This document shows, piece after piece, positions 5,439 through 59,321 of a DNA stretch of 64,000 nt. Below the pieces are notes generated by a model. It saw nothing but the letters and a program-made list of their open reading frames with translations. It ran no database searches and had not been told where the DNA came from. Location of the stretch: assembly GCA_021158465.1 (NCBI GenBank), contig JAGGUN010000022.1, positions 21,601 to 85,600 on the forward strand. Reading direction: 5' to 3'. How positions within the stretch are numbered: the stretch's first letter is position 1; every line of letters starts with the position of its first letter. Both the position numbers and the translations under genes were made by a program. This DNA is from a bacterium. Its GTDB lineage: Bacteria > UBP14 > UBA6098 > 4484-93.

Positions 5439-5693
5439 CTACCTTTTTGTCCTTCTTACTATATCGACGAGCCTCCATCTCTTTGTCCGCGAGAGGGGGC
5501 GAGTCTCCACGATGCGAACCCTATCTCCGATTCTGCACTTATTCTCAGGGTCGTGAGCTGTAAGCTTTGTTCGCCGTCGGATCGTCTTTTTCAAAAGCGG
5601 ATGCTGGACATAGGTCTCTACAAGCACCTTGATAGTCTTATCCATCTTGTTAGAAACGACAGTTCCCTCCCTTATTTTTCTTTTACCGTTCAT
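5439..5693 (-). CDS. rpsQ: 30S ribosomal protein S17
   Basis: S17 is a primary 16S rRNA-binding OB-fold protein. The 84-residue product has [17 protein letters not shown] and [17 protein letters not shown], both standard. It is the first gene of the left ribosomal half-operon. Its normal upstream neighbour rpmC is 53.4 kb away at the other end of the window. Its Shine-Dalgarno is AAGGGGG. A sigma70-type promoter and a dyad lie just upstream, so this half can be transcribed independently of the S10 half. Confidence 0.98.
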
Positions 5694-5719
5694 AGCCCCC
5701 TTAAGCCTCCGTAAGGTTT

Positions 5720-5744
5720 GTAACTAACTTTGGAAATAAGTTAC
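5720..5744 (-). promoter_or_regulatory. dyad at the predicted transcription start of rpsQ
   Basis: GTAACT (5720-5725) and AGTTAC (5739-5744) form an inverted repeat. A tighter inner hairpin (AACTT, 7-nt loop, AAGTT) lies within it. The dyad starts 2 nt downstream of the -10 box of the rpsQ promoter, spans the expected start site, and is AT-rich. It could be a repressor operator or a weak leader hairpin. No known factor is recognised, and a chance origin is possible. Confidence 0.3.
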
Positions 5745-5745
5745 T

Positions 5746-5773
5746 AAAATATAATGATCAAAAGAAATGTCAA
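5746..5773 (-). promoter_or_regulatory. promoter of rpsQ half-operon (TTGACA-N16-TATTTT)
   Basis: On the minus strand a perfect -35 TTGACA (5773-5768) is followed after 16 nt by TATTTT (5751-5746). The start site would be near 5739, giving a leader of about 45 nt before rpsQ. The same TTGACA, 16 nt, TATTTT layout occurs upstream of the subtilase gene, which supports it as a real promoter. It explains how the spc half survives separation from the S10 half. Confidence 0.7.
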
Positions 5774-5804
5774 GATTTTTCTAAAAAATGTTCTATGGTT
5801 GTTT

Positions 5805-6467
5805 TCAGAAGCGGTGAACGAGAGATGCTGTGAATGAAGCCTCTCCTCTGTCGAGTTTGCTGGAAAGCTTAATCTCCGTTTTTGTGTATCCTCTGTATAT
5901 TCTATAGGTGTTCAATGCAGAGATAACTCGCTCAAATGCAAGCACACCGAACGCTATCTTGATGTTGCGGTACTGCTCCTCATGCCGATTGCGGAGATTT
6001 CGATACCTGTTTCTATGCTTTTCGCTCTCCCATCTCCAGAAATACTCGTCCGTTTCTGGGTAGAGTGCTGAGAGGTCGCGCTCCTGTACGAGTTTCGAGC
6101 GGTTGTATTCGTCTCTTGAATTATAGAAGGCGAGGTTCTTAAAGAAATCTTTGTTCTTTCCCTCGAGGTATGCTCCAGCGTACACACCGGCGTAAGATTT
6201 CATATCTTCGAATAGCCAGTCTGCCTTGACCTTAGAGAATACGATAAAGCCCCAAAGCGTTCCCTCCGTTATGAAGAAGGTGCTGGATGTGTTCTTGTCC
6301 TCGAGGTATCTTTCGCCTGCACCGGGAAGGAGAAGCGACAGCCCGATCCCTTTCCAGAGGGAGGCTGCTCCCTTTTCTGTTTTTTCCTGCTTTTCCCAGG
6401 GAACATCTGCTATCCCACTCGATGCAAAAGCGAGGAGAAAAACTATAATGGTAAGTGATCTTTTCAT
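5805..6467 (-). CDS. small secreted or envelope protein, DUF5683-like, paralogue 1
   Basis: A 220-residue protein with a signal peptide (about residues 1-20, ending SSGIAD). It has a hydrophobic GIGLSLLLPGAGERYL stretch and a second apolar segment shortly after. The LLLPGAGExY motif and layout match the next gene upstream, so the two are paralogues. They resemble the PGxGqxY element of DUF5683 proteins that accompany outer-membrane genes in Bacteroidota-like bacteria. The middle is rich in charged and aromatic residues (many R, Y, E). It is the last gene of the T9SS-like operon, with an AGGTGAT Shine-Dalgarno. Function unknown. Confidence 0.85.
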   Translation of the reverse strand: MKRSLTIIVFLLAFASSGIADVPWEKQEKTEKGAASLWKGIGLSLLLPGAGERYLEDKNTSSTFFITEGTLWGFIVFSKVKADWLFEDMKSYAGVYAGAYLEGKNKDFFKNLAFYNSRDEYNRSKLVQERDLSALYPETDEYFWRWESEKHRNRYRNLRNRHEEQYRNIKIAFGVLAFERVISALNTYRIYRGYTKTEIKLSSKLDRGEASFTASLVHRF

Positions 6468-6472
6468 ATCAC

Positions 6473-7306
6473 CTAATTAAAGTTAACCGTGAGGAAAACC
6501 GAGTGTGTAACCTCGTTGTTCTTGTAAGCCGTTTGTGTTCTTATAGTTGCATCCGTGAACCCCTTGAACATTTTCTCATTGCTTATTTTCGCCGTTATGG
6601 CGGCGTCGAGTGCGGATAGGAGATGGTTAACAATAACCCCTGCTACAGAGTATGTTGCCAGCTTCAGCATATCGTTCGATCTCTTGCGCATTCTGAGGTA
6701 TTCTTCGCGCTTGTCTGTTGTGCGGTTTGGCTCCTCGATATTCGATACATCCGGATCGCCATACCAAGAGGAGTCCTGGGCATCGATCCAGCCCATAACA
6801 AACCAGTTGTATTTTCCTATCATCTCGTAGTACTGCTGGTTTTTTGTCGATGGTAGATGTTCCACAGCTGCGGAGGTATCCTCTCCGAGGGAATAATACC
6901 ACTCCCAGTAGAGCGCTTCACTCCACCACCTATCTGCGAATTCTTTGTATTCCTTTTCCTTCTTTTTCCCCTGGCTGTGGTAGTAGAAGTGTCCTGTCCA
7001 GAGTCCAGCCTCGAGCAGGAGGAAACTGGCCGCCTGTATATATGATTTTGTGTAGAGCTCGCCTGCACCGGGAAGGAGCAGAGAATATCCGAGTGCTCTG
7101 GATATCGAGAGAGGCTTTTCCTCGGCAAATATTTTCCCCTCTGATAATGTATCTTTTCCCCACTGCTGTGTAAGGAGCATTTCATCCTGGACGGAAGGCG
7201 ATAGGCTTTCTCTAAACTCTGAAAGGGTCATATCGGGAGAAGGGGAGATGTCCATCCCATAGACTGCCCCTGAAAGCAATATTAACAGTATCAATCCGTA
7301 CCTCAT
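6473..7306 (-). CDS. secreted or envelope protein, DUF5683-like, paralogue 2
   Basis: A 277-residue protein with a signal peptide (residues 1-17, cleavage near AVYG). A SLLLPGAGELYTKSY motif lies about 70 residues in, followed by a hydrophobic stretch (AASFLLLEAGLW) and a second near VAGVIVNHLLSALDA. The motif arrangement is the same as in the neighbouring 220-residue gene, which points to tandem duplication. The Shine-Dalgarno AAGGAGG is strong. It lies 12 nt after the M6 peptidase gene in the PorU-PorV operon, suggesting an envelope role linked to secretion. Function unknown. Confidence 0.85.
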   Translation of the reverse strand: MRYGLILLILLSGAVYGMDISPSPDMTLSEFRESLSPSVQDEMLLTQQWGKDTLSEGKIFAEEKPLSISRALGYSLLLPGAGELYTKSYIQAASFLLLEAGLWTGHFYYHSQGKKKEKEYKEFADRWWSEALYWEWYYSLGEDTSAAVEHLPSTKNQQYYEMIGKYNWFVMGWIDAQDSSWYGDPDVSNIEEPNRTTDKREEYLRMRKRSNDMLKLATYSVAGVIVNHLLSALDAAITAKISNEKMFKGFTDATIRTQTAYKNNEVTHSVFLTVNFN

Positions 7307-7318
7307 TATGCTTCCTCC

Positions 7319-10300
7319 TTATTTTACTATCGCTATTACAAATCTTTTTGTATCGATTTCGCCGTTTGTTCCTTCGGCAGAGACTGTGCAGATGTATGTA
7401 CCTGCTGCTCTGTCTCGTGTTTGCCAAAGGATATCGTTTATCGCATGGGTTGTTCCTGCAAACCTGTCGATGAGCCTTCCGGAAAGGTCGAATATCCTCA
7501 CAGTGACACGCTCAGCCGTTCCGATGCCTATCTCGTAGTGGATATATGTCTTGTCCGCTGTCGGATTGGGATAGTTGTAAGCCTTCGTTATAAGCGGTCT
7601 GGTTGGGATTGTGTCGGCAGGCAGTTCCACATTGACGGAGTTGATGTTTCTTCCGAATCTATCAGGTTCCGATCCACCGGAGATAAGCCCTTTATATATA
7701 TGGACGAAGCCGTCATCGGCAGCGAAGATAATCTTGTTTCTGTCGGTTCCGTCTATATTGCCCGATGACAGAGAATACCATATCCCTCCTGAGGATGAGA
7801 CGGGAAATGGAGGCACGATTTTTCCTGTCTGGTCGATGCAATATATCGCTTTCCCATGGACGGAGAAGAGGAGTCCTGTTTCCGTTATGAGTGGTGGCGT
7901 TGATATGGTTGAGTCCGCCTCAAACGGGAAATTCGGCAGGAGTGTCCCGTGCTCATCCACACAGAAGAGCTTGTTCTCCCCGGAGAATGCAATCTCGAAT
8001 GTCTCGTTTCCGTCGATGTTGAGAGCAACAGGCTCGCTGAACGAGGAGAGGTTCATGTCTCTCGGGAAGCCGGGACAGATTTCCCCGTTCTCGTCGAGCA
8101 TGTAAAGAACTCCATCCGCGAGAAAGGAGAGATAGAACCTCTCGCCTGTTGCCTCTATTTTCCTGATGCCTAAGAGGCGCGTATACTCTTCTTCTGGGAA
8201 CTCGCGCAGGAATTCGAGCTTACCTGTCGCGGCGTTGTATCGGAATAACCTTCCTTTTGCTCGGGCGGAGAGTATATAGAGTATTGTATCGCTTGCTGGG
8301 ACAACCCCCTTTATCTCTCCTCTTGTGTCTATCTCGGAGGCTATATCCCCTGAGAACGACACCATCCGGATCTTGCCGTTCTTGAACGGGACGGCTATTA
8401 TCTCTCCCTCAAGTACAACAGGGTGATACACCGGATCATCCTCAAACGAGACGGGAAACCCGTGGAAGAAGTCGCATCTCCCGTCATAATTCTCATCGCT
8501 GAACCGGTAGGCGGCAAGTTCATTCCTCTGATTTGTCAGAAGCATCTCGTCTGTCCCGTCGCTATCCAGGTCGGCGAATATCAGAGGGGATACGGCATAC
8601 CCAGGGCAATCCACAATAACAGGGAACGGGTAGTATGTGGTGTCAAAGGGGGTTATGTGCGCTATGTTATCATAGTTTGGGATCAACCTCGAGAGGTCAT
8701 CGTCCCATCCGAGTATGTACCCTTCGATGGCGAGGAATATCTCATCCTTGCCATCGTGATCGAAGTCGACAACGACGGGGTTGGCGAGCGGTGTAAACCC
8801 GAAGAAGAGGCTACCTGCCGCCATAACGAACTCACTCCCGACGGATATTACCATGCTGTCGCCTGGTGGTGTCAGGGTCTGTATAGTAATTCCTGTTCTG
8901 CCGCCTGTGTTCGAGTTCGAGTTCGGACAACTGGTAGGGGAGAAGGTAGTGCTTCCACCGATGAAGTATGCGTCATCGCTGTCACCGTAGGTGTAGTATA
9001 CGCCTATGTCCTGATAGCAGCTTGCCTCCTCCAGGTCAATAAATAGCCTATATTGGTCCCATTGGAGCGTGTTTTCCTCGAAGTTCGTCTTGCCGTTTCC
9101 TGTGTAGTCCATATACGCGACACGCTCATCTATGTGCCAGATGAGGACCCCGGACGCTGGCAGTAGGTAATCATACAAGCGGTTCGGCGTGTAATCCTCA
9201 TATATCGGTCCAAGCACAACCCCTGTCTCTGGATCCTGGTGGAGGTAGATGACCGAATCTGTGCCGACTATCTCCTCGCGATTCTCGACGAGGAAATATT
9301 CGTAATCGTCTATAGGGATTTTATAGATTGTGTTCCTCCGTTCTCGTTCGAGTTCGGGGGCGTAGAGTTTGAGTGAATCCCTTGATTCTGTTATCTCGAT
9401 GACATCCTCGAATCCGAGGTATGCGCGCTCCCATGCGGATGGGTACGCTGGTAAGAGAGCAGATGCAACTGTTCCATCTGCGTCTATCTGGACAGGTATC
9501 AATCCACCGTGGTCCATAAGGGAGAAGTCACCGACTTCCGAGCGGAAGTCGTATGTGGAATAGAGGTCGACGAGACCGAGCGCGTGTCCGAACTCGTGGG
9601 CAAGGATACCGTTCAGGGCTGTAATCTGTCCATCCTGTGAAGCGAACTCAGGTATTATGAGCCCCTCTGAGATAACATCTCCGATCACTGGCTCATCGAA
9701 GGTGATGAAGGCTGTTGGCAGGTCATCCGGACTGGGGACGAATATATCGGGGAAGAGGTTCTGCTCCGGTGGTATGGTAGAGCCTATGTCGTTCTGCCAG
9801 TCGGCACCAGCGTGGAACACGATAAAGACATCGTAATCTCCAATGGGGATCTCGTCGGAGGAAAGAGCGGTTTCCCAGGCATCAACAAAGAACTGCTCAA
9901 GACGGTCTCTCATATCACCGAGCCAGCCGTTTGGACCATAATAAGCCATACTGTCTGGGAGTCTGTAAGATGCATTCTCTTCTGTCGGGAATATATCCCA
10001 GGTTAGTATTATATTCCCGTTGGATACTGCATACCAATAGTTGGCAAGCGCCTGGAGGTGAGCGTTGAAATACGACTTGTTGTGTGGAGGCGGGTCGATG
10101 ATAACGGTTGTGTCTGTTGATAGATCGAACGTGCCGGGACCTGTGCTGTTGGTATTATTATCCGGCTGGAACTCAACCCTTATGGCGCATATACGAAGCC
10201 ACACTGGCTCTTTCAGTCCCTCCTTTGGGAGACCATCCTTTTTTCTCTCTATACCGAGAAGGTTCTTTTTTGATACATCCGATTGGAAATGTCTCGGTTG

Positions 10301-10399
10301 GTATCTTTGCCTGCCGACCCTTATTATAGACAACTTACCAGAGAAGGCATGGGAAAAGAGAAGGATCAGGAACAGTATGCACGCAATCGGTTTTTTCAT
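7319..10399 (-). CDS. secreted M6-family metalloprotease with T9SS-type C-terminal tail
   Basis: A 1026-residue exported zinc protease of the immune-inhibitor-A (M6) family. A signal peptide (residues 1-20) is followed by a catalytic domain holding HEFGHALGLVD. The likely zinc ligands are H268, H272 and D278, with E269 as general base (HExxHxxGxxD). The middle of the chain carries repeats of the FDHDGKDEIFLA and FADLDSDGTDEMLL type (FG-GAP/VCBS-like), probably a propeller. The last 90 or so residues hold YNYPNP and a GRLIDRF strand, the Ig-like tail used as T9SS or FlgD-type sorting signal. The ATG overlaps the stop of the PorV-like gene by 1 nt, so it is probably cargo encoded with its exporter. 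Confidence 0.93.
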   Translation of the reverse strand: MKKPIACILFLILLFSHAFSGKLSIIRVGRQRYQPRHFQSDVSKKNLLGIERKKDGLPKEGLKEPVWLRICAIRVEFQPDNNTNSTGPGTFDLSTDTTVIIDPPPHNKSYFNAHLQALANYWYAVSNGNIILTWDIFPTEENASYRLPDSMAYYGPNGWLGDMRDRLEQFFVDAWETALSSDEIPIGDYDVFIVFHAGADWQNDIGSTIPPEQNLFPDIFVPSPDDLPTAFITFDEPVIGDVISEGLIIPEFASQDGQITALNGILAHEFGHALGLVDLYSTYDFRSEVGDFSLMDHGGLIPVQIDADGTVASALLPAYPSAWERAYLGFEDVIEITESRDSLKLYAPELERERRNTIYKIPIDDYEYFLVENREEIVGTDSVIYLHQDPETGVVLGPIYEDYTPNRLYDYLLPASGVLIWHIDERVAYMDYTGNGKTNFEENTLQWDQYRLFIDLEEASCYQDIGVYYTYGDSDDAYFIGGSTTFSPTSCPNSNSNTGGRTGITIQTLTPPGDSMVISVGSEFVMAAGSLFFGFTPLANPVVVDFDHDGKDEIFLAIEGYILGWDDDLSRLIPNYDNIAHITPFDTTYYPFPVIVDCPGYAVSPLIFADLDSDGTDEMLLTNQRNELAAYRFSDENYDGRCDFFHGFPVSFEDDPVYHPVVLEGEIIAVPFKNGKIRMVSFSGDIASEIDTRGEIKGVVPASDTILYILSARAKGRLFRYNAATGKLEFLREFPEEEYTRLLGIRKIEATGERFYLSFLADGVLYMLDENGEICPGFPRDMNLSSFSEPVALNIDGNETFEIAFSGENKLFCVDEHGTLLPNFPFEADSTISTPPLITETGLLFSVHGKAIYCIDQTGKIVPPFPVSSSGGIWYSLSSGNIDGTDRNKIIFAADDGFVHIYKGLISGGSEPDRFGRNINSVNVELPADTIPTRPLITKAYNYPNPTADKTYIHYEIGIGTAERVTVRIFDLSGRLIDRFAGTTHAINDILWQTRDRAAGTYICTVSAEGTNGEIDTKRFVIAIVK

Positions 10400-12819
10400 T
10401 AGAACTGTAGGGTCATTGAGATTCGCTTAATACCGGACAGCACGACATCCTTCTGTTTGGGGATATATCCGAAATCGAAGCTGAAGTTTCGGTAGTGCAA
10501 TCCGGCACCGAATGTTGCGTACTTAAGGCAGCCCTCAGTATCCCAGACATAGCCGCCTCTCAGAGAGACGAAGTTCCCGTAGGAATACTCTACGCCGACG
10601 TTCTCGATAACCTCTTTTAACTCCTCCTTAAAGATGCATGAGTAGTCTTTTTTCCCGGTGCTCGTAGTGCACTGTGGCTCATATCCGATGTCTATCAGGT
10701 CTTTGTTAAGGTCGGCGAGCACGGTCAGTTTGTTGTAAGATGAATTCAGGATATTATATGCTATACCGAACTTTGCGTTTCTCGGCAGCGGGTCAGCCTG
10801 TGCTGCATCTATGTAGGCGATGTCTGGTCCGAGGTTTTGGATGGTAAGTCCGAGGTTTAGCCCACGGATAGGCGTTTTATAAAGGATACCGAGGTCCACG
10901 GCAGCATCGTGAGCGATCCCTTTTCCTTGTTCACTTCCTGCTCCAACATCTGCAAGATGGCTGTAGATATACTTGAGTGTAACACCGGCGGAAAGTCCGT
11001 GGGTTATCGGCAGTCCGTATGATAGCGCTATTGCCATATCGTAGGAGCTGAACACGCCGAGGCTATCCCCCTGTGGGTTTGTATGCACGTTCTTACCCAT
11101 AGAGAGAAATGTAATGCTGCCACCAACTGTTCCCCATCCTTCCAGATAGTGAGTTCCAGCTAAGAACTCGTAATAGATGTCACTGGCGAGCTCGGGTAGC
11201 CACTGAACATGCATAGCAGTTATTCCGCTTTTCCCCTTGGAATACACGACCACCTTATTCTGTGTAGCGAACCATATCTCGCCGCCGCGCTCGGTCATAG
11301 CAACGGTTGGGTCCCTATCGAGACCAGAATGGGAGTAGTAGCGGAACTTCCCCTTGGAATAGACCAAAACGCCGTACTCTGTTCCGAAATAGAGCTTACT
11401 GCCGGTAGCAACGACGGAGTATGCCTTTCCGCTCGTTGGACTTGATGGAATAGCTACAATATCACCAGGTGAGAGCTCCATCCGGTTGGAGCGGTTGAAC
11501 TTCAGGATATCGTCTCGCAGACGCATACGGGTGTTCTCGTCAAGAGACGGCCATCTCGCTTCGACGAAGTCTGATATCGTTGTTGCCTCTGTTACCTTGG
11601 CGAACTGATAGCCGAAGAACTTCCAGGTATGCTCGGAAGACATCTTCTTTATTCCGTACCTTGTTCCAAACCAGAGATTTCTTGACCTATCTCTGGCGAC
11701 CGAATATATCTCCCCTTCAAACACTGCAGAGTATGGTATCTTTACGCTTTCGAGACTGATTGTATCCGTTTCCGAGGCGTCTTGGATGTTATTGGTGACG
11801 GTGAGCTCAAGTAGCGTCATATCTCGTCTGTTTCCGAGCGGCTTGTCGAAGACGAGGTCAATGAGTTTGCCCCATGTGAGCCTCTTCCCTTCAAGCCGGA
11901 AGGTATATTCTCTCGACCAGTTCATTCCTCGATACACTGCTACTCCGTTCTCTGTCGAGCACCAGACCTCTGAGGATGAGATTGGGAAGACCCCGGTGAC
12001 CTTCTTAGAGGGCAATCCGTCCATGGGTGAGAACTGTCTCCACTTGGCGCCACGCTTCCTGTAGACGCCGTTGTCTGTGGCAACCCAGATACCTCCCGCA
12101 TCATCCTCCGATATCATATTTACCCTTACATCCTTTGGAGAGGATTTTTCCCTTATCTTTACCATTCCGCTCTTCGAGTAGCGGTATAACCCGTTTTCTG
12201 TTCCTATCCAGAGGTTCTTGGATTTGTCACCGTAGAGGCAGGTTATCTTCTCGGTTATCATTATCGAGTACGGTATCTTCAGTTCGAAGTCCACTGGCAT
12301 AATATCGTTTTCTAAGGTTATCCCTGACAACTTGTTGTGGTTGACGATGCGAGAGAAGATACTGCTCTTTATCTGCTCCTCGGAAAGGGACGGGAAGAGC
12401 CGCTTGAGTATCTCGGTTAGATGCTCGTCCTCACCAGTCACATAGATTAGCTCCTTGTTCCACCCCTTCGATGTGTGTTTGTATAAGCTGTTTTCTGTGG
12501 CGACCCACATATCATATTTTCTATAGTCTATTTCCACTCTTCCAGACTTGATGAGCGCCAGAGCGATAATCTGCTCTTCCGGGTGATCGAACTCGAACTC
12601 ATACCAGGAACTGGAGAGGGGATACCTGCCGAGTCCTGCTGGGTTATAGTAGGTTGCCGTGGGGTCATCGGAGAGGGCTACAAATGACTCTCCCATACCG
12701 GTAGGTCGTGCTCCTGGATGTATCATCAGGAAGAGTACCGCTGACTGGCGGAGGTCGGCGGAGGCTGATGAAAAAAGCGCTGTCAAAACCACCAGCAGGA
12801 TGACTATCTTCCTTACCAT
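10399..12819 (-). CDS. PorV-like outer-membrane barrel with inserted two-component-regulator-type propeller
   Basis: An 806-residue protein with a signal peptide (1-21). Residues of about 35-66 show GARPTGMGESFVALSDDP followed by YYNPAGLGR, the N-terminal PorV/PorQ (UPF0164) signature. In ordinary PorV (about 350-390 aa) the barrel continues at once. Here it resumes near residue 540 with WLPELASDIYYEFLAGTHY and runs to the C-terminus. In between are about 450 residues of NLWIGTENGLYRY- and GIWVATDNGVYR-type repeats, the blades of two-component-regulator propellers. This looks like a whole propeller inserted into the first extracellular loop of the barrel. PorV carries T9SS cargo to the sortase PorU, whose homologue is encoded directly upstream. 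Confidence 0.87.
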   Translation of the reverse strand: MVRKIVILLVVLTALFSSASADLRQSAVLFLMIHPGARPTGMGESFVALSDDPTATYYNPAGLGRYPLSSSWYEFEFDHPEEQIIALALIKSGRVEIDYRKYDMWVATENSLYKHTSKGWNKELIYVTGEDEHLTEILKRLFPSLSEEQIKSSIFSRIVNHNKLSGITLENDIMPVDFELKIPYSIMITEKITCLYGDKSKNLWIGTENGLYRYSKSGMVKIREKSSPKDVRVNMISEDDAGGIWVATDNGVYRKRGAKWRQFSPMDGLPSKKVTGVFPISSSEVWCSTENGVAVYRGMNWSREYTFRLEGKRLTWGKLIDLVFDKPLGNRRDMTLLELTVTNNIQDASETDTISLESVKIPYSAVFEGEIYSVARDRSRNLWFGTRYGIKKMSSEHTWKFFGYQFAKVTEATTISDFVEARWPSLDENTRMRLRDDILKFNRSNRMELSPGDIVAIPSSPTSGKAYSVVATGSKLYFGTEYGVLVYSKGKFRYYSHSGLDRDPTVAMTERGGEIWFATQNKVVVYSKGKSGITAMHVQWLPELASDIYYEFLAGTHYLEGWGTVGGSITFLSMGKNVHTNPQGDSLGVFSSYDMAIALSYGLPITHGLSAGVTLKYIYSHLADVGAGSEQGKGIAHDAAVDLGILYKTPIRGLNLGLTIQNLGPDIAYIDAAQADPLPRNAKFGIAYNILNSSYNKLTVLADLNKDLIDIGYEPQCTTSTGKKDYSCIFKEELKEVIENVGVEYSYGNFVSLRGGYVWDTEGCLKYATFGAGLHYRNFSFDFGYIPKQKDVVLSGIKRISMTLQF

Positions 12820-12831
12820 ATTCTTCCTCCC

Positions 12832-15800
12832 TTATTTTATCTTGCTCACCTTTTTGACGAATTCCTTCTTTGTATCATTCTTACGGACGACGAGCTTGTA
12901 AAGATATGTTCCGTTCGGAACCTCTCTGCCGTTTTCATCCTTCCCATCCCAATATATCTTGTTGAACCCGTTTATGCAAATGTTATCTTTTAGCCTGCGA
13001 ACAAGCCTCCCGGATAGGGTAAATATGCTGATATCTGCTTCCCCCTCGCCGTATAGTATGAATGTGAACCACACTCCGTCTGTGAACGGAGATGGATAGG
13101 GTAGGATCTCCTTCACGGATATATTATCGTCGGCTACTTCAAAATGAACAGTTTCGAGCGTTGCATTGCCGAAGTTGTCCCAGACCTTGACTGCTGCCGT
13201 GTGTATCCCCGGTGAAAGCAGAGGTAAGGTGTATACTATTAGTCCATCTGTGGAGCTGTCGATGTTGTATCTGAAATATCCTGTTATATCGGTTGATTGC
13301 TCTATGTTTTCGTCTATTATAAGCGTTATTGTATGTCCGACCTGTCCTGTAGTGTTTATTCCAGATTCATCTGAGACCTCGGCATAGAGCACTGACCCGT
13401 TTGGGACGAGGTCAAAGTCGCTGAACCCTTTGTTGCCGATGTAGATTTTTACCGACGGAGGGATTGTATCGAGTTCGGTAATCTCAGAGTGCGTCGATAT
13501 GGGGATGGAGTCAAGCCCGCCAGCTGCGTCGAATGTGTCGTTGTAAGCGTATGCTGTAATCCTTGCACAGTTTGCTCCGTAACTTATCTCCCTCGGTAGG
13601 ATAAAACCTGCCTGAAACTCCCCTTTGGTAACGGTGAACTCACCCGAGAAGAGGATATTCCCAGGCTTTGTGTATTGAATGGTCGAGCCAGTTCCGTCTG
13701 CAAGCGTGTATGTCTTTATGTAGTCTGAATCGAATACCTTTATGTTGACCTTCCCATCGATCGGGAGCAGTTCTCCAGATGTATCTCGAACGCTTCCGTA
13801 GATTGTTATCCGTGTGAGGGCAATGAATTCATCTGGTGTCATGGAGTCGATCACAACGGGGAGGTCAGGGTTGGCAAGGCGTGTTGCTGGGTCGCCGAAT
13901 AGGAGATACTGGGCATCGTTGGAGCTATAAGTTCCCAGGATCTTTGCCGCCAGAAGTGCCTCGCCGAGATAAGGCTTTGGACGGTTCATAAATAGCAGGT
14001 TGAAAAGGTTGTAGTTTAGGCTGGCGTTCGGAGATGGTGTGGTTGGCCCCGTGGCTGCGATGGAGGCTATACTCCCCTTATCTGCTTCCCTCTGCATCCT
14101 CTCAGATAGGCATTCGAACCCAGGAACGAAGAACTCTGACACAGCACAGGAAAATGAATTGACGAGTGGTAGCATTCTGCCGTTTGATAGCCGTGCAATG
14201 TCTGAGTTAGAGTCGAATAGATGCTCGTGCGCCCAGAGATGATAATTCCCATGCCCGATGAAGTTAACGACAACCGCTCCCTCGTTTATCCAGTTGATGA
14301 GGTCGGCGTTTGCCTCTGGCTTGAGCCTCTGTGAGTTCATCGGATACTCAACCATATAGAGCATCCTTCTCTCACCCCAGTAAGGTAGAAAGTTCTGCAG
14401 TTCGCTTGTCTGAGTTGTGTGCATACCCTCACTGTGGGATGTAGTTGTGTTCTCATCATCGCCGCAGAGGATGTACCTGTTCCGCCAGTTGCCAAAGTGT
14501 GGGTTATACTCGTAGTCTATGACCTTCGATGTGATGATATCGAGTTCTCGCTGACTGTTGGCACAGAACCTACCAGCTGCAACCTGTGGAACGAGCGATG
14601 CAGGGTCTGTCTTAAGGTACCAATCGTCAGAGAAGTAAACCCCCTCTCCTGCAGGTGGTAGCGGATTGGCGTTACGGGTTGTTATCTCCTTGTAATCGTA
14701 GTGTCCGTCGCCGACGAGCAGGACAAACTCTGGAGGAACACCCCAGTTCTCCAGGGCATATTTTATATAGTTTCTTATGGCACCAGGGTCGAAAACCCCC
14801 CAGGAGAATTCGTTGTATATTTGCTGAAGGGTTGCTACCTTCACCCGAAACCCAGAGAATTTCTCCCTGAAATCCCTTATGTCTGTTATGTTGAACTCCT
14901 CATCGGCAATGATAATGTACTCTCCCCCCGATATATCTGCCCTGAGACCGAGGTCAGGTATGTAGTCTGCCATCTGAACACGCCTGAACGAGGACGGGGT
15001 TGTGGCAAAGTATATCCTGCGTACGCTGTCCACAGAATCGGTGACTGTCCCCCCTACCGAGTACCGGACAGAGAACCTATCTGTTACATCAAATATCCAG
15101 ATGCTATCTCCTTCTATGTTATACCGGTAAGTTCCAGCCTCCTTCGGAGATAGGAAGGTTAGGCTGTCGTCTGCCAAGGAGAGCCGTTTCTCGTATTCTA
15201 CCTCAAAGTAATAGAAGAATGTTTCCCTCGAGTAGTGGAATGAAATATGATTTGTTCCAGGTGCAAGTGTGGAAACAGGAAACCCTCTATCGATCGGGTC
15301 ATAACTGCTCGCTTCGCCGTTCACAACAATGTACGACGGCTGGGGATAAGCCCTGACGACCCCGTTGGAGGATGCGATCCGATCTTCTGTGAAGCTATAG
15401 GTTCTTGTTGTGAACCTGTCCCACCCCCAGTCTATGCCGGCATTGTATATACGCTTCTCCTCGAAATGGTCTAAGGCAAAGCCTGTTTCTTTCTCTTCGT
15501 ATTTCGCATACTTGGTGAACTGTTCCATACGGGCAGCTGGAGTTGAGAAATCTCCCCCTATGGCGATAAAGTAGCAGTTTTCCCTCGCATACGGATGATA
15601 GTTGAAGCTATAATTTGCTAAGTCTATTGTCTTAAGAAAGTTTATCCCGTTTCCCCAGAAGATGAAATACTCCTCAGGTTCAATAGATTTATCGTCATCG
15701 CCGAAGAATAGGAGGGGGATTTCTTGTAGTTTTGGCTGTTCGAATGTTATGGCGGGCAGTTTCCTGCCTCCGCCGTTGAACAGGCGGACATCGTCAGGGC

Positions 15801-16572
15801 TTATTGTCTCTGGCTGGATGCCGAGGTTCGAGAGGAGGTTATAGTCAAGCTTGTATATTCCGTTGGAGTTGATGTAGAACTTATACCATCTATCCGATGG
15901 GGAGAACGGGTTGTAGTATTCCTTTCTTTGCTTCCTCCTGCGTAGCCGGAGGGCTGATTTATAGTTGGAAAGCAGATTTTTCAGGATATGTTCGTATCTA
16001 CCTTCGGGAACGGTTTTCCCTGATGGGTTGTGGAAGATAACGGAGACAGTGAGCTTCTTCACAAGCTCAATTTCACCTGTCTCTGGGTTAAACCTAACAG
16101 GATAGTATCTTATTGCTGCGATATGCTGTGAGCGGAAGTCTCCCATATCGAGGAAGACTGCATCATCGTTTGGATAGAAGTCAGAGGTGGAGTAAACAGA
16201 GTCGTTTTCGGTGATTTTATATTCCCAGATGTCATTTCTAAGGTTCGGTGTTGGCACGGGCTTAACCCGTCCCTTGCCGTATGGAACAACTTCTTTCTCT
16301 GCACGGATGGAAAAAGAATCGCTTATCCCTATTATTATCGACTGCGATGGTATATCAGGGAAGCCGGAAGGTTCCCTGTGAGAAAACCTTTCCGGCACGA
16401 GGATAGCGGTATAACCACCCGATTCGACGAGGGAAACAGAATCGGGTTCGAGGGAAAACTCAACGGAGAATCGAGAAGGAGAATCCTCGATTATTGTATA
16501 GGGGAAACTCACAGCTGATAGGAAGAGGAGAGCCCCGGCAGATACCGTCAATATCTTCAGTATATACAACAT
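12832..16572 (-). CDS. PorU-like C25 (gingipain-type) peptidase of a type IX-like secretion system
   Basis: A 1246-residue exported protein. The signal peptide is MLYILKILTVSAG... ending near VSF. The middle holds the gingipain fold: LLVGDGHYDY, then catalytic H774 in FIGHGNYH and C809 in NSFSCAVSEF. In T9SS, PorU is the cell-surface sortase that removes C-terminal signals and attaches cargo. The protein ends with its own FlgD/CTD-like tail (FTLSGRLVRRL, NGTYLYKL), as known PorU proteins do. A TTG-started frame extends 23 codons further upstream, but its TTG is part of the -35 box of a good promoter, so the internal ATG before the signal peptide is taken. It heads the operon with the PorV-like and M6 genes. 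A C25-family cargo protease is the alternative. Confidence 0.88.
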   Translation of the reverse strand: MLYILKILTVSAGALLFLSAVSFPYTIIEDSPSRFSVEFSLEPDSVSLVESGGYTAILVPERFSHREPSGFPDIPSQSIIIGISDSFSIRAEKEVVPYGKGRVKPVPTPNLRNDIWEYKITENDSVYSTSDFYPNDDAVFLDMGDFRSQHIAAIRYYPVRFNPETGEIELVKKLTVSVIFHNPSGKTVPEGRYEHILKNLLSNYKSALRLRRRKQRKEYYNPFSPSDRWYKFYINSNGIYKLDYNLLSNLGIQPETISPDDVRLFNGGGRKLPAITFEQPKLQEIPLLFFGDDDKSIEPEEYFIFWGNGINFLKTIDLANYSFNYHPYARENCYFIAIGGDFSTPAARMEQFTKYAKYEEKETGFALDHFEEKRIYNAGIDWGWDRFTTRTYSFTEDRIASSNGVVRAYPQPSYIVVNGEASSYDPIDRGFPVSTLAPGTNHISFHYSRETFFYYFEVEYEKRLSLADDSLTFLSPKEAGTYRYNIEGDSIWIFDVTDRFSVRYSVGGTVTDSVDSVRRIYFATTPSSFRRVQMADYIPDLGLRADISGGEYIIIADEEFNITDIRDFREKFSGFRVKVATLQQIYNEFSWGVFDPGAIRNYIKYALENWGVPPEFVLLVGDGHYDYKEITTRNANPLPPAGEGVYFSDDWYLKTDPASLVPQVAAGRFCANSQRELDIITSKVIDYEYNPHFGNWRNRYILCGDDENTTTSHSEGMHTTQTSELQNFLPYWGERRMLYMVEYPMNSQRLKPEANADLINWINEGAVVVNFIGHGNYHLWAHEHLFDSNSDIARLSNGRMLPLVNSFSCAVSEFFVPGFECLSERMQREADKGSIASIAATGPTTPSPNASLNYNLFNLLFMNRPKPYLGEALLAAKILGTYSSNDAQYLLFGDPATRLANPDLPVVIDSMTPDEFIALTRITIYGSVRDTSGELLPIDGKVNIKVFDSDYIKTYTLADGTGSTIQYTKPGNILFSGEFTVTKGEFQAGFILPREISYGANCARITAYAYNDTFDAAGGLDSIPISTHSEITELDTIPPSVKIYIGNKGFSDFDLVPNGSVLYAEVSDESGINTTGQVGHTITLIIDENIEQSTDITGYFRYNIDSSTDGLIVYTLPLLSPGIHTAAVKVWDNFGNATLETVHFEVADDNISVKEILPYPSPFTDGVWFTFILYGEGEADISIFTLSGRLVRRLKDNICINGFNKIYWDGKDENGREVPNGTYLYKLVVRKNDTKKEFVKKVSKIK

Positions 16573-16613
16573 CCGCTTATAGAAGCTCCGGGCATCCTCC
16601 AGTTTTTGAGGGA

Positions 16614-16641
16614 AATATAAACGCATTGGTCTGTTTGTCAA
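16614..16641 (-). promoter_or_regulatory. promoter of the PorU-PorV operon (TTGACA-N16-TATATT)
   Basis: Minus-strand TTGACA (16641-16636), a 16-nt spacer, then TATATT (16619-16614). A start near 16607 gives a leader of about 35 nt to the ATG at 16572. The -35 box begins only 6 nt below the mtnA stop codon. It fixes the downstream ATG as the real PorU start. Confidence 0.7.
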
Positions 16642-16646
16642 GAGTT

Positions 16647-17681
16647 TTAACCTATGAGCTTTGGAATGTTCTTTTTTAGAGGGTTCTCTATTATGCCTTT
16701 TTCGGTTATGATCCCTGTTATGAGCTCTGCTGGAGTTACATCGAATGCATATGTGAGAGCATCGGCTTCCTTTGGAGCTATCCAGGTTCCACAGAACCTT
16801 TTTATCTCATCTTGAGAGCGTTTTTCGATGGGTATCTGTCTGCCTGTGGAGAGAGTGAGATCGAATGTTGTTGATGGGGCAGCGACATAGAACATAACAT
16901 TGTGAGCCTTTGCTAGCACGGCGAGAGAGTATGTTCCTATCTTGTTTGCCACATCGCCGTTTGCTGCAATCCTGTCTGCCCCGACAATGACTATATCAAC
17001 TCCCCTGCGAGCCATAAGGGCACCTGCCATACTGTCTGTTATAACCGTCGTCGGGATACCTTCGCTTACAAGCTCGAACGCTGTGAGGCGAGCCCCTTGG
17101 AGTAGGGGGCGGGTCTCGTCCGCGTACACGGATATCCTCTTTCCCTTTTCCCAGGCTTTGTATATGACGGCGAGGGCAGTTCCTATTCCGCCTGTTGCGA
17201 GTGCTCCAGCGTTGCAATGAGTAAGTATCCTGAACCCGTCTTTGATAAGCCCCTCGCCAGCTTCACCTATTGCCTCGCAGAGAGCCTCATCCTCCTTGTG
17301 GATCTTTATTGCTTCCTCGAGCACAAGCTTTTTTATCTCCCGGGGGGGTAGTGAACTGTTCGACTTTATCAGATTGTCCATACGGTCGATTGTGTGGAAC
17401 AGATTGACCGCTGTCGGTCGTGAGGAACGCAGGAAATCCGCTACGGTCGTGAATCTGCTGTAGAAATCCTCGAATGTTCCTGTATCGTAGTGGCGGATGC
17501 CCAGATATATCCCGTAGCCTGCCACTATCCCCAGAAGTGGTGCACCACGCACAGCGAGTGTGACGATTGCTTCTCGCAGCTCCATAACATCGTAAATGTC
17601 GAGCCACACGAGTTCGCCAGGGAGTTTCCGCTGGTCTATTGCTCGCAGGTGTTCCCCTCTCCACTCGATCGCTTTTATCAT
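16647..17681 (-). CDS. mtnA: methylthioribose-1-phosphate isomerase
   Basis: MtnA converts 5-methylthioribose 1-phosphate to methylthioribulose 1-phosphate in methionine salvage. The 344-residue product has RGAPLLGIVAGYG (substrate loop), the catalytic Cys156 in LTHCNAGALAT and Asp236 in VGADRIAANGDVANKIGTY. These match the C160/D240 pair of characterised enzymes. The Shine-Dalgarno is AGGAGAGG. It lies 7 nt downstream of a secreted subtilase and is probably co-transcribed with it, although no functional link is evident. The related eIF2B-like ribose-1,5-bisphosphate isomerases are less likely given the motifs. Confidence 0.95.
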   Translation of the reverse strand: MIKAIEWRGEHLRAIDQRKLPGELVWLDIYDVMELREAIVTLAVRGAPLLGIVAGYGIYLGIRHYDTGTFEDFYSRFTTVADFLRSSRPTAVNLFHTIDRMDNLIKSNSSLPPREIKKLVLEEAIKIHKEDEALCEAIGEAGEGLIKDGFRILTHCNAGALATGGIGTALAVIYKAWEKGKRISVYADETRPLLQGARLTAFELVSEGIPTTVITDSMAGALMARRGVDIVIVGADRIAANGDVANKIGTYSLAVLAKAHNVMFYVAAPSTTFDLTLSTGRQIPIEKRSQDEIKRFCGTWIAPKEADALTYAFDVTPAELITGIITEKGIIENPLKKNIPKLIG

Positions 17682-17688
17682 TCCTCTC

Positions 17689-20415: not shown

Positions 20416-20451
20416 CTTCGCTCCTTCATTTCCGGGACACAATTTTGGTTA

Positions 20452-21677: not shown

Positions 21678-22616
21678 ATGGGAGAAAAATATATAAAAAT
21701 GAAGGAAGTAACTCACAAAGATTATCTGGAATTTATCAAAGATAAAACATCTGTAATAATCGAAGATGTAGAGATAAAACTTCAAAAGAACTGGAACATA
21801 AAATCTTATGCTCCACCTAACGATTATACTCCAGAACGAACAACGGTATGGAGCTTCCCTGATCGTGGTGATTGGGCAACCCATAAGGGGAATTATAGAG
21901 GGAACTGGTCTCCATATATACCCAGAAATCTTATTTTGAAATATACTCAGAAAGGGGATTGGGTTCTTGATCAGATGATGGGTAGTGGAACAACTTTGGT
22001 AGAAGCAAAGTTGTTGGAAAGAAATGCTATCGGAGTAGATATAAATCTTGATGCTGTTATGGTAGCGCGAGATCGTTTAAATTTCTCATATAACCCACTT
22101 TTCCCTGAATACAAAGAACCCATAATAAAAACATACTGGGGAGATGCAAGAAATTTAGATAAAATTGATGACGAAAGCATCGACCTCATCGCCGCACATC
22201 CACCATATGCAAGTATAATATCGTATACAAAAAATAAAAAATTGAGCGATGACCTGTCGCAATTACCATTTGAAGAGTATCTTAAAGGAATGCGAAAAGT
22301 GGCTGAGGAGGTTTTTAGAGTATTAAAACCCGGTAAAATATGTGCAATCCTGATAGGAGATACAAGAAAACACAAGCACTATGTGCCTATTGCTTTTAGG
22401 GTTATGCAAGCATTTCTTGATGTAGGCTTTATTCTGAAAGAAGATCTTATTAAACTGCAGTGGAATATGAAAAGCACGAGAGAAAGGTGGCGCGCAAAGG
22501 AGTATGAGTTTTATCTCATCGCTCACGAGCATATCTTTGTTTTTAGAAAACCGGAGAGTGAGAAAGAATATAAAAAATACAAATTTAGCGTGAGGTGGAG
22601 GAATGGAAATAAATGA
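21678..22616 (+). CDS. SAM-dependent DNA methyltransferase (N6/N4 type)
   Basis: A 312-residue adenine-N6 or cytosine-N4 DNA methyltransferase. The SAM-binding motif I is LDQMMGSGTTLVEA (G102-T106), and the catalytic motif IV is AAHPPYAS (H174-Y177). That is a histidine variant of the (D/N/S)PPY signature, with motif I before motif IV. The start has a TAGGAGATG ribosome site. It overlaps the next gene by 14 bp, so the pair is translationally coupled and may form a restriction-modification or other defence unit. The region is clearly more AT-rich than the flanking core genes, consistent with horizontal transfer. The target site cannot be predicted. Confidence 0.87.
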   Translation: MGEKYIKMKEVTHKDYLEFIKDKTSVIIEDVEIKLQKNWNIKSYAPPNDYTPERTTVWSFPDRGDWATHKGNYRGNWSPYIPRNLILKYTQKGDWVLDQMMGSGTTLVEAKLLERNAIGVDINLDAVMVARDRLNFSYNPLFPEYKEPIIKTYWGDARNLDKIDDESIDLIAAHPPYASIISYTKNKKLSDDLSQLPFEEYLKGMRKVAEEVFRVLKPGKICAILIGDTRKHKHYVPIAFRVMQAFLDVGFILKEDLIKLQWNMKSTRERWRAKEYEFYLIAHEHIFVFRKPESEKEYKKYKFSVRWRNGNK

Positions 22617-23166
22617 TCTCAAAGAGCTTATGACATTCAGAAGTCAAGGTGAAATTAGAAGACCTATAAGTGTAATAAAGGTGAATGATAATTTCATTTT
22701 GGCAATATACAAGGGAAGAAAAGGACCAGCAGATATTCTAATCAGATATAGACAAAAGTTGAAAAATGGTGAATGGTCAAACATCAGAACGCCCAAGCAT
22801 ATTCATTGGACAGTAGATATTTTAATAAAAATGTTTCAAGAAGAGCATTTAACAAAACAATTCATAGACGAACTGATGAAAATTTGGAAAAAGGAAATCC
22901 AACCTATGACTCAAAATGAGAGAGATAGACTTGAATTAGATGAATTGTTAAACTATGATAAAGAGACTCTTGAGCGATTTAGGGAGCTTAGTAAATATGG
23001 TGAATATAATGTAAGATTTCTTTTATTGCTCGCAAAATTGCTAATGCTTCAGGAGAGAACAAATTATCCAGAAGGACAATTATTTCAAACCCTGTTAAAA
23101 AAGTTGAAACAAGGGGAAGATATTTTCAGTATTTTGCAAACAGCAACTCTAAGGAGGTTAAGATAA
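22603..23166 (+). CDS. unknown protein coupled to DNA methyltransferase, candidate restriction partner
   Basis: A 187-residue, lysine-rich soluble protein with no signal peptide or membrane segment. The N-terminal half holds predicted strands and a basic patch ending TPKHIHWTVDILIK. The C-terminal half is helical and charged (NERDRLELDELL, then LLLLAKLLML). I recognise no catalytic motif. The 14-bp overlap with the methyltransferase and the shared AT-rich composition indicate a functional pair, with a type II restriction enzyme or a specificity/helper subunit as the first guess. An attC-like element follows 57 nt after its stop. Confidence 0.75.
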   Translation: MEINDLKELMTFRSQGEIRRPISVIKVNDNFILAIYKGRKGPADILIRYRQKLKNGEWSNIRTPKHIHWTVDILIKMFQEEHLTKQFIDELMKIWKKEIQPMTQNERDRLELDELLNYDKETLERFRELSKYGEYNVRFLLLLAKLLMLQERTNYPEGQLFQTLLKKLKQGEDIFSILQTATLRRLR

Positions 23167-23223
23167 GATGTTCGGCGATGGTAGGCACTCTGAGGTGCTT
23201 TGCACCTTGCCCCTATTCGGGTC

Positions 23224-23302
23224 ACTTAACACGGGCTATACGGTTCACTTCGTTCGCCCAAATCGGCTTACGCCGACTTCGTATAGCCCGATACCGTTAT
23301 TT
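23224..23302 (+). repeat. attC-like imperfect palindrome 1 (integron cassette site candidate)
   Basis: ACTTAAC (23224-23230) fits the RYYYAAC R-box. A perfect 11-bp inverted repeat follows, CGGGCTATACG (23232-23242) with CGTATAGCCCG (23280-23290). The spacer is 1 nt on the left and 5 nt (ATACC) on the right, and a GTTATTT box begins at 23296. The loop holds GCCCAAAT and a small hairpin (TCGGC/GCCGA). This AAC, stem, unequal spacer, GTT plan is that of integron attC sites. The second element shares the plan and GCCCAAAT while its stem sequence differs. The next gene starts 38 nt after GTT. Confidence 0.62.
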
Positions 23303-23336
23303 GCAATGTGCATTATGATGAAAGAGATGTGAGATA

Positions 23337-23828: not shown

Positions 23829-23845
23829 TAGAGTATGCACACAGC

Positions 23846-23933
23846 AGATAACAGAGCGCATCTGGCTACGGTGCTTCGCATCTCTGCCCAAATCCTGCTT
23901 CGTAGGACTTCAGATACGCTCGGAACGTTTGGT
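23846..23933 (+). repeat. attC-like imperfect palindrome 2
   Basis: AGATAAC (23846-23852) is followed after 1 nt by GAGCGCATCTG (23854-23864). Its partner CAGATACGCTC (23911-23921) pairs at 10 of 11 positions. A 5-nt spacer and a GTT box at 23927-23929 follow. The interior has GCCCAAAT and a TCCT/AGGA mini-hairpin followed by ACTT, at the same places as in element 1. The outer R-boxes match the attC consensus less well than in element 1. The HNH gene begins 51 nt after GTT. Confidence 0.58.
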
Positions 23934-23980
23934 GGCATCGCGGTTTTGAGTTTAAAGGAAGAAATAAAAGGAGGAATAAA

Positions 23981-24765: not shown

Positions 24766-24778
24766 AAACCGAAAATTT

Positions 24779-53355: not shown

Positions 53356-53369
53356 GATGGGAGGATGAA

Positions 53370-56857: not shown

Positions 56858-57387
56858 TGACAGGATTTAAGGAGAAGAGGTTTGTTCGGCTTGGTGGTGT
56901 TGGGGTTCTGTCCGATATTGTCTCAATATTTTACCCGCTTTTCGTTGTTCTTGGAATATTCTCGAAGGTGTCGTTGGAGCTTTTGCGGACAGGGGTTAGG
57001 ATTGAGCGTCGTCTTTTTCTCTTTGGAACGGAGATAGCATACAAGCGCTGGCTCTTCCCTTATGAGGGGATAAAGGTTGTTCGTTACAAGGAGTCTCGTC
57101 CTTGGACCATACTTATTATCGGGAATATAGTGGCAATATTCGCATTTGTTTATGCTATACGGGGTGTTTTCTTCTCGAAAACGGTTATTGCCTGGCAGGG
57201 AGCAGTTGTTTTTCTTCTCGGCGTTTTGGGTGGAGTTGTGGCAGCCACAATCTTCGGTCTGTGGCGCCGTAGGTTCCTTCTTATCAAAGGGGATGGGTTT
57301 AGTTTCCGCATCGAGACAGGGGAACAGGATATAGAGCTTGACCTCATTCAGGAGAGGCTCATCTCGCGCCTCTGGCGAGTGCGATAG
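56854..57387 (+). CDS. small membrane protein, PH-like, unknown function
   Basis: A 177-residue protein with two or three hydrophobic segments (VSIFYPLFVVLGIF, WTILIIGNIVAIFAFVYAI, GAVVFLLGVLGGVVAATIF) and two charged stretches that could form split PH-like (bPH) strands. The start ATG overlaps the previous stop (ATGATGA). It is the last gene of the plus-strand operon. Its 3' end overlaps the convergent acyltransferase gene by 40 bp. Confidence 0.75.
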   Translation: MMTGFKEKRFVRLGGVGVLSDIVSIFYPLFVVLGIFSKVSLELLRTGVRIERRLFLFGTEIAYKRWLFPYEGIKVVRYKESRPWTILIIGNIVAIFAFVYAIRGVFFSKTVIAWQGAVVFLLGVLGGVVAATIFGLWRRRFLLIKGDGFSFRIETGEQDIELDLIQERLISRLWRVR

Positions 57388-58274
57388 AGCTCGGGATGGG
57401 TTGTCTTCCATCTCCGGTGTGCCCAGAACCAGTGGTCGGGATGCTCCCTGATGAAATCCTCGATAACGGTTGTATATTCCTGTGTCAAGGAGTTTATCGC
57501 ATCGTCGGTTAGCTTGTTGGTCTTCGGGTATATTATCTCTTTGCAGATAAAAATGTGTTTCTCCGGACGGTCTTTTCTTCTAAGGAAGAATCCGATAAAG
57601 ATTGGTGCAGAGCTTTTTATTGCGAATGCTGCAGGACCTTTTGGTGTTGAGGCTTTCATTCCGAAGAATGAAACGATGGTTCCGTCTCTTCCTGCGTCCT
57701 GGTCGGAGAGCAACGCAACGAGTCGCTTTCTCTTCAATGCTTTCAACACTCCTCTGGCAGAAACCCCGATTGGAATTGTCTCTATCCCCATAATATGCCT
57801 GATACGGTTCATCTCACGGTCGATGATGCGGTTTTTCTGCTTCCCGACGAGGAAGTCAATATTTCCCCATCTCTCAGCGATGTATGCTCCTCCCATCTCC
57901 CATGAGCCAAAATGCCCGGTGACAAGGATTCCACCTTTATCCTCTCTTATTATCTCCTCTAAGATTTCCTCTCCCTCACACTCGAAGAAGGATGCAACTT
58001 TTCCTTTTATGAGTGGAAGTGTGGCATACTCGACAACCGAGGCGACAAAGTTCTGATAGGACGCAATGGCAATCGCTTTTATCAGTGCCCTGTCTTCTAT
58101 TCCGAGGGCGGCAGAGATATTCCTGTGGCTGACATCTCTCCTTATCCCTACAAAGTAGATGAGAGAACCAAGCTTCTTTCCAAAGGCAACGGACATCTTG
58201 CGTGGTAGGAGAAAAAGCATAGCAGAAAATAGCCTGTATGCTATGTATTCAATAATGTGTTGGACCCTCTTCAT
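57348..58274 (-). CDS. lipid A biosynthesis-type acyltransferase (LpxL/HtrB-like)
   Basis: A 308-residue inner-membrane acyltransferase. The catalytic H-x4-E motif is HFGSWE, preceded by GGILVTG. SDQDAGRDGTIVSFFG and TPKGPAAFA are the other family blocks, and the HPDHWFWAHRRWK end is typical. LpxL-type enzymes add secondary acyl chains to lipid A, so the organism probably makes lipopolysaccharide. It overlaps the upstream peptidase gene by 26 bp and lies at the end of the rpmC-side ribosomal transcript. It converges with the plus-strand operon. Confidence 0.92.
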   Translation of the reverse strand: MKRVQHIIEYIAYRLFSAMLFLLPRKMSVAFGKKLGSLIYFVGIRRDVSHRNISAALGIEDRALIKAIAIASYQNFVASVVEYATLPLIKGKVASFFECEGEEILEEIIREDKGGILVTGHFGSWEMGGAYIAERWGNIDFLVGKQKNRIIDREMNRIRHIMGIETIPIGVSARGVLKALKRKRLVALLSDQDAGRDGTIVSFFGMKASTPKGPAAFAIKSSAPIFIGFFLRRKDRPEKHIFICKEIIYPKTNKLTDDAINSLTQEYTTVIEDFIREHPDHWFWAHRRWKTTHPELYRTRQRREMSLS

Positions 58275-59094
58275 TCTCCCATTCCCTTATTTTCCTGCGA
58301 TTGCGAATCTTCACTCTAATATATGAAATAAAGAGTAATAAGAGAAATACAAGAAATATGACCCTTTGGTCGAGGAATATGGAGAATATGTTGTAATGTC
58401 GGCGGATGTGGTCGAAGAGTATCTTGTTGTAGCCGCTTTCTGTTATTCCGAAATGGTAGAGCATTGCTCTCTCGAAGCCGAGCTTTGGGATGTCGGCTAT
58501 GAACCGGATGAGCCTTTCTTTTCCCACTTTTTCATACAGCAGTTTCACAGCGATGTAGCTTTCGGCATAGGCGAGGTGTGCCTTGTCCGAGTGGAATATG
58601 TTCACATCGTCGATATCGGGTAGCTCTATAAGCTTCCCCGATAGTGAGGCGAAAGCGAGTCTTATCGTGCTTCCTTGCACAACCTCGCAGGATAGGAGCT
58701 GAGCGACCCCCTCGTCGAACCAACGCGGAATGCAGGAGTTCTCTGTCTTTTTGTGCAAGAGGATATGTGTAAGTTCGTGCGTTACGACCGATGGGTTGAG
58801 CTTTTCCTGTGATAGGAGGATAATCTTGGACATTCTTGGGATGGCGGCTGCGAACCCCCATTCAGGGAGGGTGTTACCTGTTGCCGAGTCGAACTGCTCG
58901 CGGTTCTCCGCTACAAACACAAATATAGAGCCTGCGTCCGTCTCAAAGAACTCCTCCAATCTTTTCGTCTCACTCTCGATATGGGAGACAAGCTCAGGAG
59001 AACAGGCTCCTTCAAGGATGATCTTTGCCTGTATAGGAGATGCAAGGATGATAAGAGAGATAATGCAGGCGGGTAGTTTTATCAACCCTATCAA
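58249..59094 (-). CDS. membrane-anchored peptidase MA-like gluzincin
   Basis: A 281-residue exported zinc metallopeptidase. An N-terminal signal or anchor (residues 1-23) is followed by THELTHILLH (HExxH) and PRWFDEGVAQ, whose Glu is the third ligand of the gluzincin/peptidase MA family. A C-terminal membrane segment (VIFLVFLLLLFISYI) with a basic tail anchors it. It starts with TTG 5 nt after the rpmC stop and has no clear ribosome site, so a TTG three codons on is also possible. It is transcribed as a continuation of the S10 half-operon. Its substrate is unknown. Confidence 0.85.
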   Translation of the reverse strand: MIGLIKLPACIISLIILASPIQAKIILEGACSPELVSHIESETKRLEEFFETDAGSIFVFVAENREQFDSATGNTLPEWGFAAAIPRMSKIILLSQEKLNPSVVTHELTHILLHKKTENSCIPRWFDEGVAQLLSCEVVQGSTIRLAFASLSGKLIELPDIDDVNIFHSDKAHLAYAESYIAVKLLYEKVGKERLIRFIADIPKLGFERAMLYHFGITESGYNKILFDHIRRHYNIFSIFLDQRVIFLVFLLLLFISYIRVKIRNRRKIREWENEEGPTHY

Positions 59095-59099
59095 TGAGG

Positions 59100-59321
59100 C
59101 TATTTTTCAGTTCTTTGGAACGACTTATCTATTCCGAGTTTTCTTTCGTTGAGGATGGTCTTGATGCGCGCAATCTCCTTTTTTATTTCCCTGAACCGCT
59201 TTGGATTGGAAAGTTCCTTGATAGCCCTTTGCATTCTCAGGTTAAACGCCTCCTCTTCCAGCTCCCGGATCCTGTGTACGAGTTCATCATTCGTCATTTC
59301 CCGAAGCTGCCAGACCTTCAT
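59100..59321 (-). CDS. rpmC: 50S ribosomal protein L29
   Basis: L29 lies at the peptide exit tunnel near the signal recognition particle site. The 73-residue product has [21 protein letters not shown] and the [19 protein letters not shown] helix. The ATG overlaps the rplP stop by 4 bp. It is the last ribosomal gene of the right-hand half. rpsQ, its usual next neighbour, is at 5693, and instead a peptidase gene follows 5 nt later. Confidence 0.97.

Follow-up and report, generated by a model that had tools for sequence, protein, structure and literature searches.

A phylum-wide break in the S10-spc ribosomal protein cluster, probably left by an ancient exchange with the fab operon

That the S10-spc-alpha region of ribosomal protein genes can be rearranged is already known. 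In Gammaproteobacteria and Bacilli, 163 alteration events have been reconstructed, and disconnection was found to begin usually with small insertions of a few genes between operons (Brandis 2021, PMC8046335). The break described here resembles these histories in that the synteny of a conserved translation cluster is lost in a lineage, that this loss is inherited, and that the new neighbours are often lost later, but it differs from them in that it falls inside the S10 operon (as defined in E. coli), between rpmC and rpsQ, and in that it appears to be a reciprocal swap with another essential operon, which marks a phylum. In Leptospira, the S10-spc-alpha genes are described as a single locus of 17.5 kb with an unusual composition (PMC2481283); the two cases are alike in that an altered ribosomal protein cluster is conserved within a lineage, but the Leptospira locus is not described as halves that lie far apart and are joined to fab genes. 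In the literature that we searched, which leaves most subscription papers outside its reach, neither rpmC-acpP nor fabG-rpsQ hybrids turned up, nor did a reciprocal exchange between the S10-spc-alpha and fab clusters, and the novelty of the arrangement is to be taken as provisional.

Here, we analyzed a stretch of 64,000 nucleotides (hereafter the window; contig C17, positions 21601-85600) from a draft genome of 2.04 Mb in 54 contigs that is 97.6% complete. The two ends of the window carry, both on the minus strand, the two halves of the cluster. At the left end, rpsQ (encoding S17; 5439-5693; NCBIfam TIGR03635 at 115.5 bits for a cut-off of 88.7) leads a detached spc half made of rplN, rplX, rplE, rpsN, rpsH, rplF, rplR, rpsE, rpmD, rplO, and secY (118-5429), which continues outside the window into an intact alpha operon (rpsM-rpsK-rpsD-rpoA-rplQ). 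At the right end, rpmC (encoding L29; 59100-59321; NCBIfam TIGR00012 at 67.2 bits for a cut-off of 22.6) is the final ribosomal protein gene of the detached S10 half, whose remainder comprises rplP, rpsC, rplV, rpsS, rplB, rplW, rplD, rplC, and rpsJ (59318-63868), the contig ending at 64000. Both rpmC and rpsQ are single-copy in this genome, both score above the curated family cut-offs, and the distance from one to the other is 53,406 bp. Since the canonical gene order is kept within the S10 half, the spc half, and the alpha operon, only one clean break has to be explained, at rpmC|rpsQ. A preliminary description of this DNA had reported ordered, same-strand halves cut exactly at this point, with about 40 genes on both strands, core genes included, lying between them; both statements hold, and the split in the window is confirmed as real.

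The same description had taken the arrangement for a settled one rather than an assembly join, and here too it was right. The left junction, formed by the rpsQ leader, a gene that we call u220, and a DUF5683-like gene (5694-7306, minus strand), has the same genes in the sole other genome of the same genus (G001), one contig of which reads secY...rpsQ-u220-DUF5683-M6-PorV-C25-mtnA-S8-thiL. At the right junction, a pepMA-like gene and a lipid A acyltransferase gene (57348-59094, minus strand) follow the S10 half, the pepMA-like gene lying 5 bp past rpmC in the window and likewise in G001, where pepMA-rpmC-rplP and the following genes stand on another single contig; the S10 half thus now runs into pepMA-lpxL in the window's lineage. 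A draft assembly in this many contigs could in principle have misjoined two halves of a genome in which rpmC truly sits beside rpsQ, but we regard this as hardly conceivable, since both junctions repeat in the genus-mate MAG and since no phylum member that has the two genes lacks the split, the break being internal to contigs in most of these other members. Recurrence within the genus and throughout the phylum, in independent assemblies, rules a misassembly out.

The extent of the split was established by searching L29 and S17 in 98 genomes, among which the window's phylum is sampled by 17 draft MAGs belonging to one class and four families (f1 to f4, f1 being the window's family). Both genes are present in 14 phylum members, and in all of these rpmC is separated from rpsQ; in 13 of them, namely all 13 relatives of the window's genome, they are on separate contigs, and in most of these relatives one or both ends of the break are flanked by other genes over kilobases. 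In other phyla, the two genes are adjacent in 79 of 80 genomes, in keeping with the earlier statement that they adjoin in almost all bacteria. The sole exception (G085) has rpmC, rplP, and rpsQ-rplN-rplX-rplE on different contigs (loci L076, L092, L193, L327, and L328); its S10-spc cluster was dispersed independently and in a different way. Moreover, wherever a named FCB locus outside the phylum extends beyond rpsQ on its upstream side, rplP is still present at a distance of no more than about 0.5 kb, in most cases with rpmC intervening, and among the named loci that we compared (Zixibacteria, KSB1, Latescibacterota, Eisenbacteria, Ignavibacteria, and others), the only ones without rplP near rpsQ are L113, L131, and L145, from the phylum members G005, G003, and G009. 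The split, present in all phylum members that have both genes and absent from nearly all outgroups, is therefore a derived state common to the whole phylum. The preliminary description was correct that the split is real, but incomplete in that the event is not peculiar to this genome, being common to the phylum as a whole; its own remark that a split found across a phylum would be an old event applies.

The canonical fab cluster has the order yceD-rpmF-plsX-fabH-fabD-fabG-acpP-fabF-rnc. When the genes at the junctions were clustered across the phylum genomes, f2 and f4 emerged with common neighbours, and their cut ends look like the two halves of this cluster, swapped with those of the ribosomal one at rpmC|rpsQ and fabG|acpP. 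On one side, rpmC is followed by acpP, fabF, and rnc (G002, G004, G005, G009, and G011; G007 and G013 reach a contig end there), across a gap of a few tens of bp that holds a AAGGAGGG-type ribosome-binding site in most of these genomes and in which, among the f2 and f4 spacers, no hairpin followed by a T-run was seen. On the other side, fabG stands directly before rpsQ in all seven (G002, G004, G005, G007, G009, G011, and G013), within a fabH-fabD-fabG-rpsQ series in both f2 genomes, upstream of which f2 also has a YceD-like gene (assigned by eye from a cysteine motif). Both reciprocal junctions are hence present in five genomes, and in G007 and G013 as far as their contigs extend. Within each half, genes and order are those of the canonical cluster; the phylum version differs by the cut at fabG|acpP and, in f2 and f4, by the joining of its halves to the spc and S10 operons. 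Neither hybrid junction is present in f1, which is the basal family, or in f3, and the window genome has pepMA after rpmC, where f2 and f4 have acpP-fabF-rnc instead, and u220 before rpsQ.

Descent of f1 and f3 from the same event would predict a fab cluster that is nonetheless cut at fabG|acpP, and in both families it is. The window genome has fabD-fabG on contig C48 and acpP-fabF-rnc on contig C36; in f3, acpP-fabF (in some cases with rnc) lies away from fabD, which fabG does not adjoin; and the fabG-acpP adjacency is absent from every phylum genome where acpP was found. As an aside, acpP-fabF-rnc stands in the window genome behind a formyltransferase (purN-like) and a SAICAR synthetase (purC) gene (L247:8465-12274). 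In outgroups, fab integrity was measured as the fabD-acpP spacing (the fabD-fabG-acpP distance), which is preserved in 23 of the 24 neighbouring FCB genomes where both genes could be located and in 53 of 75 genomes across phyla; since the fab break also occurs in other phyla, it constitutes weaker evidence than the rpmC-rpsQ break. These observations bear on the possibility that the rpmC-rpsQ adjacency disappeared in f1, and perhaps in f3, through breaks unconnected with the swap seen in f2 and f4, as the lack of any retained hybrid junction in these two families would allow. We consider such independent breaks improbable, because rpmC-rpsQ is broken in only one of 80 genomes outside the phylum, which makes a repeat at the same point unlikely, and because f1 and f3 are also cut at fabG|acpP, even though that adjacency is lost, by the fabD-acpP measure, in 22 of 75 other-phylum genomes.

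A tree inferred from 19 concatenated ribosomal proteins and SecY (quick IQ-TREE search, LG+G4) recovers the phylum as one clade with the topology (f1,(f2,(f4,f3))), the family nodes all receiving 99-100 SH-aLRT. Because f2 and f4 bracket f3, the hybrid junctions were present in the f2-f4 ancestor and lost in f3, and are ancestral to f2-f4 at least. For f1, where both operons are cut at the same two points, the simplest reading would be that it shares the event and later lost the hybrids; breaks of rpmC-rpsQ are so rare elsewhere that a separate pair of cuts at precisely these points is unlikely.

On this basis, we propose that one inversion with breakpoints at rpmC|rpsQ and fabG|acpP, having occurred in the phylum stem or at the latest before the f2/f3/f4 split, is the probable origin of the break; that the inversion was single and that f1 shares it is what we infer. 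The parent operons are intact in outgroups (rpmC-rpsQ in the 79 of 80 genomes and in all informative FCB loci; fabD to acpP in the 23 of 24 FCB genomes). With the S10-spc and fab operons on opposite strands, a single chromosomal inversion would have exchanged their halves and thereby produced rpsJ...rplP-rpmC-acpP-fabF-rnc on the S10 side and (yceD-rpmF-)fabH-fabD-fabG-rpsQ-rplN...secY-alpha on the spc side. Indeed, two adjacencies cut and rejoined into exactly two new ones on one circular chromosome imply one inversion if the parents were on opposite strands, when same-strand parents would instead require the excision of a circle and its reinsertion; since the genomes are draft MAGs and since the two hybrid operons are on separate contigs in every f2 and f4 genome, inversion and excised-circle reinsertion are not distinguishable from them. 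Later rearrangements in f1 and f3 would then have parted the fab genes from both ribosomal halves. As an inversion puts the halves in opposite directions and those of the window run in the same direction, at least one further rearrangement would have taken place in f1, and the halves in the window's lineage would merely happen to share a strand, 53.4 kb apart. The preliminary description had excluded a single inversion on account of the same-strand halves. For the present layout of the window this holds, and a single recent inversion in the window genome is ruled out by that very feature, but it does not extend to the ancestral break, which is best explained by an inversion that also cut fabG|acpP.

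The DNA now lying between the halves (5694-59099), with genes such as mtnA, rho, priA, clpC, rsmB, ruvC, and yebC, was also considered as a possible cause of the split. Its gene set is not conserved at rpmC or rpsQ junctions outside the window's genus, no integrase or transposase family match was obtained among its scanned proteins, and its GC content stays within 0.465-0.505 in all 4-kb windows except one (0.42). The insertion of the block as a whole as a mobile island was rejected on these grounds, namely the lack of an integrase family match, the mostly flat GC, the core genes, and the contents unshared at junctions. A broader version supposes that a fab-bearing circle or segment, opened at fabG|acpP, entered between rpmC and rpsQ, the 53 kb being its decayed remnant; it would yield the identical two new junctions and would agree with the placement of the window's halves on one strand. 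However, in G004 (f4), at least 38 kb after rpmC and at least 76 kb before rpsQ can be followed without meeting the other half, so that the insert would exceed 114 kb; moreover, none of the other families has the genes between the window's halves at its junctions, and the excision of a circle needs more cuts than a single inversion. We thus give this insertion little credence and retain the inversion. The 53.4 kb is therefore a later, lineage-specific neighbourhood and not an inserted block, contrary to the preliminary description, which had assumed such a block and ancestral neighbours for it, since the junctions of other families share none of its genes. As those junctions are formed without the intervening genes, no particular significance attaches to the 53.4 kb distance.

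The break would have been tolerated by the cell because each new unit retains a promoter, the S10 promoter being predicted to drive rpmC-acpP-fabF-rnc and the rpsQ promoter to drive spc. In the window, the rpsQ unit is preceded by a promoter-like TTGACA-N16-TATTTT element (5746-5773, minus strand), found with the same sequence and spacing in G001, G003, and G006. Its start lies 74-84 bp before rpsQ in the window's genome (G000) and G001, both of f1, and in G003 and G006 (f3), for a chance expectation of 0.3-1.1 matches of any kind per 300 bp. That the rpsQ half has its own promoter of this sequence had already been proposed, and the conservation of the element in four genomes of two families strengthens the proposal; judging from the sequence, the spc half of the window is most likely transcribed from this promoter, 53-80 bp upstream of rpsQ.

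In f4, the consensus promoter was not found upstream of rpsQ, and an attenuator-like structure stands there instead. In the fabG-rpsQ spacer of this family, a hairpin is conserved; its loop (CCCGRG) could base-pair with CUCGGG further downstream, and after it come a stem resembling a terminator and a T-run (L081:6287-6384, minus strand; L084:11715-11810, plus; L086:6141-6235, minus; L088:11728-11822, plus; L090:5791-5881, minus). Rfam returned no match to this structure at the gathering threshold, and a covariance model built from the five f4 genomes matches nothing but the stretch before rpsQ in these same genomes. On five sequences only, it looks like a candidate transcription attenuator of the spc unit, or a plain fabG terminator. 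In each of the five f4 genomes, fabG is closely preceded by a tRNA gene. We put forward tentatively, and with more doubt than conviction, a functional reading of these features: the swap would have placed acpP, fabF, and RNase III under the S10 promoter and rpsQ-spc behind fabG, it would have been kept in f2 and f4 for lipid-ribosome coupling, and the f4 attenuator RNA (hairpin, loop pseudoknot, and terminator) would have evolved afterwards, restoring spc control.

From an evolutionary perspective, rpmC-rpsQ is among the most conserved gene adjacencies in bacteria, and its loss appears here to be traceable to a definite event, of which the second breakpoint and both reciprocal products may still be read in living relatives, a rare situation for such a deep rearrangement. 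The swap is as such a candidate rare-genomic-change marker for an FCB phylum. It also provides a natural test of the importance of the S10-spc and fabG-acpP linkages, and of a possible co-regulation of ribosome and lipid synthesis once their genes share a transcript.

Some features of the region between the halves are worth recording in their own right. At 21678-24766, a stretch of low GC (0.42 vs about 0.48) encodes an N4/N6 DNA methylase, two unknown genes, and an HNH endonuclease, and is adjoined by a tRNA-Ala gene (24692-24766); it is a possible small restriction-modification island. Between rho and priA, the N-terminal half of a transketolase forms a separate gene of 282 aa (26066-26914), next to which the C-terminal half was not seen. 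Finally, a cluster of type IX secretion cargo (7319-20442), largely collinear in G001, comprises an M6-like inactive protease, a C25 (gingipain-like) peptidase, an S8 subtilase, and an 806-aa protein with a C-terminal PorV domain and an N-terminus of PorV-like similarity.
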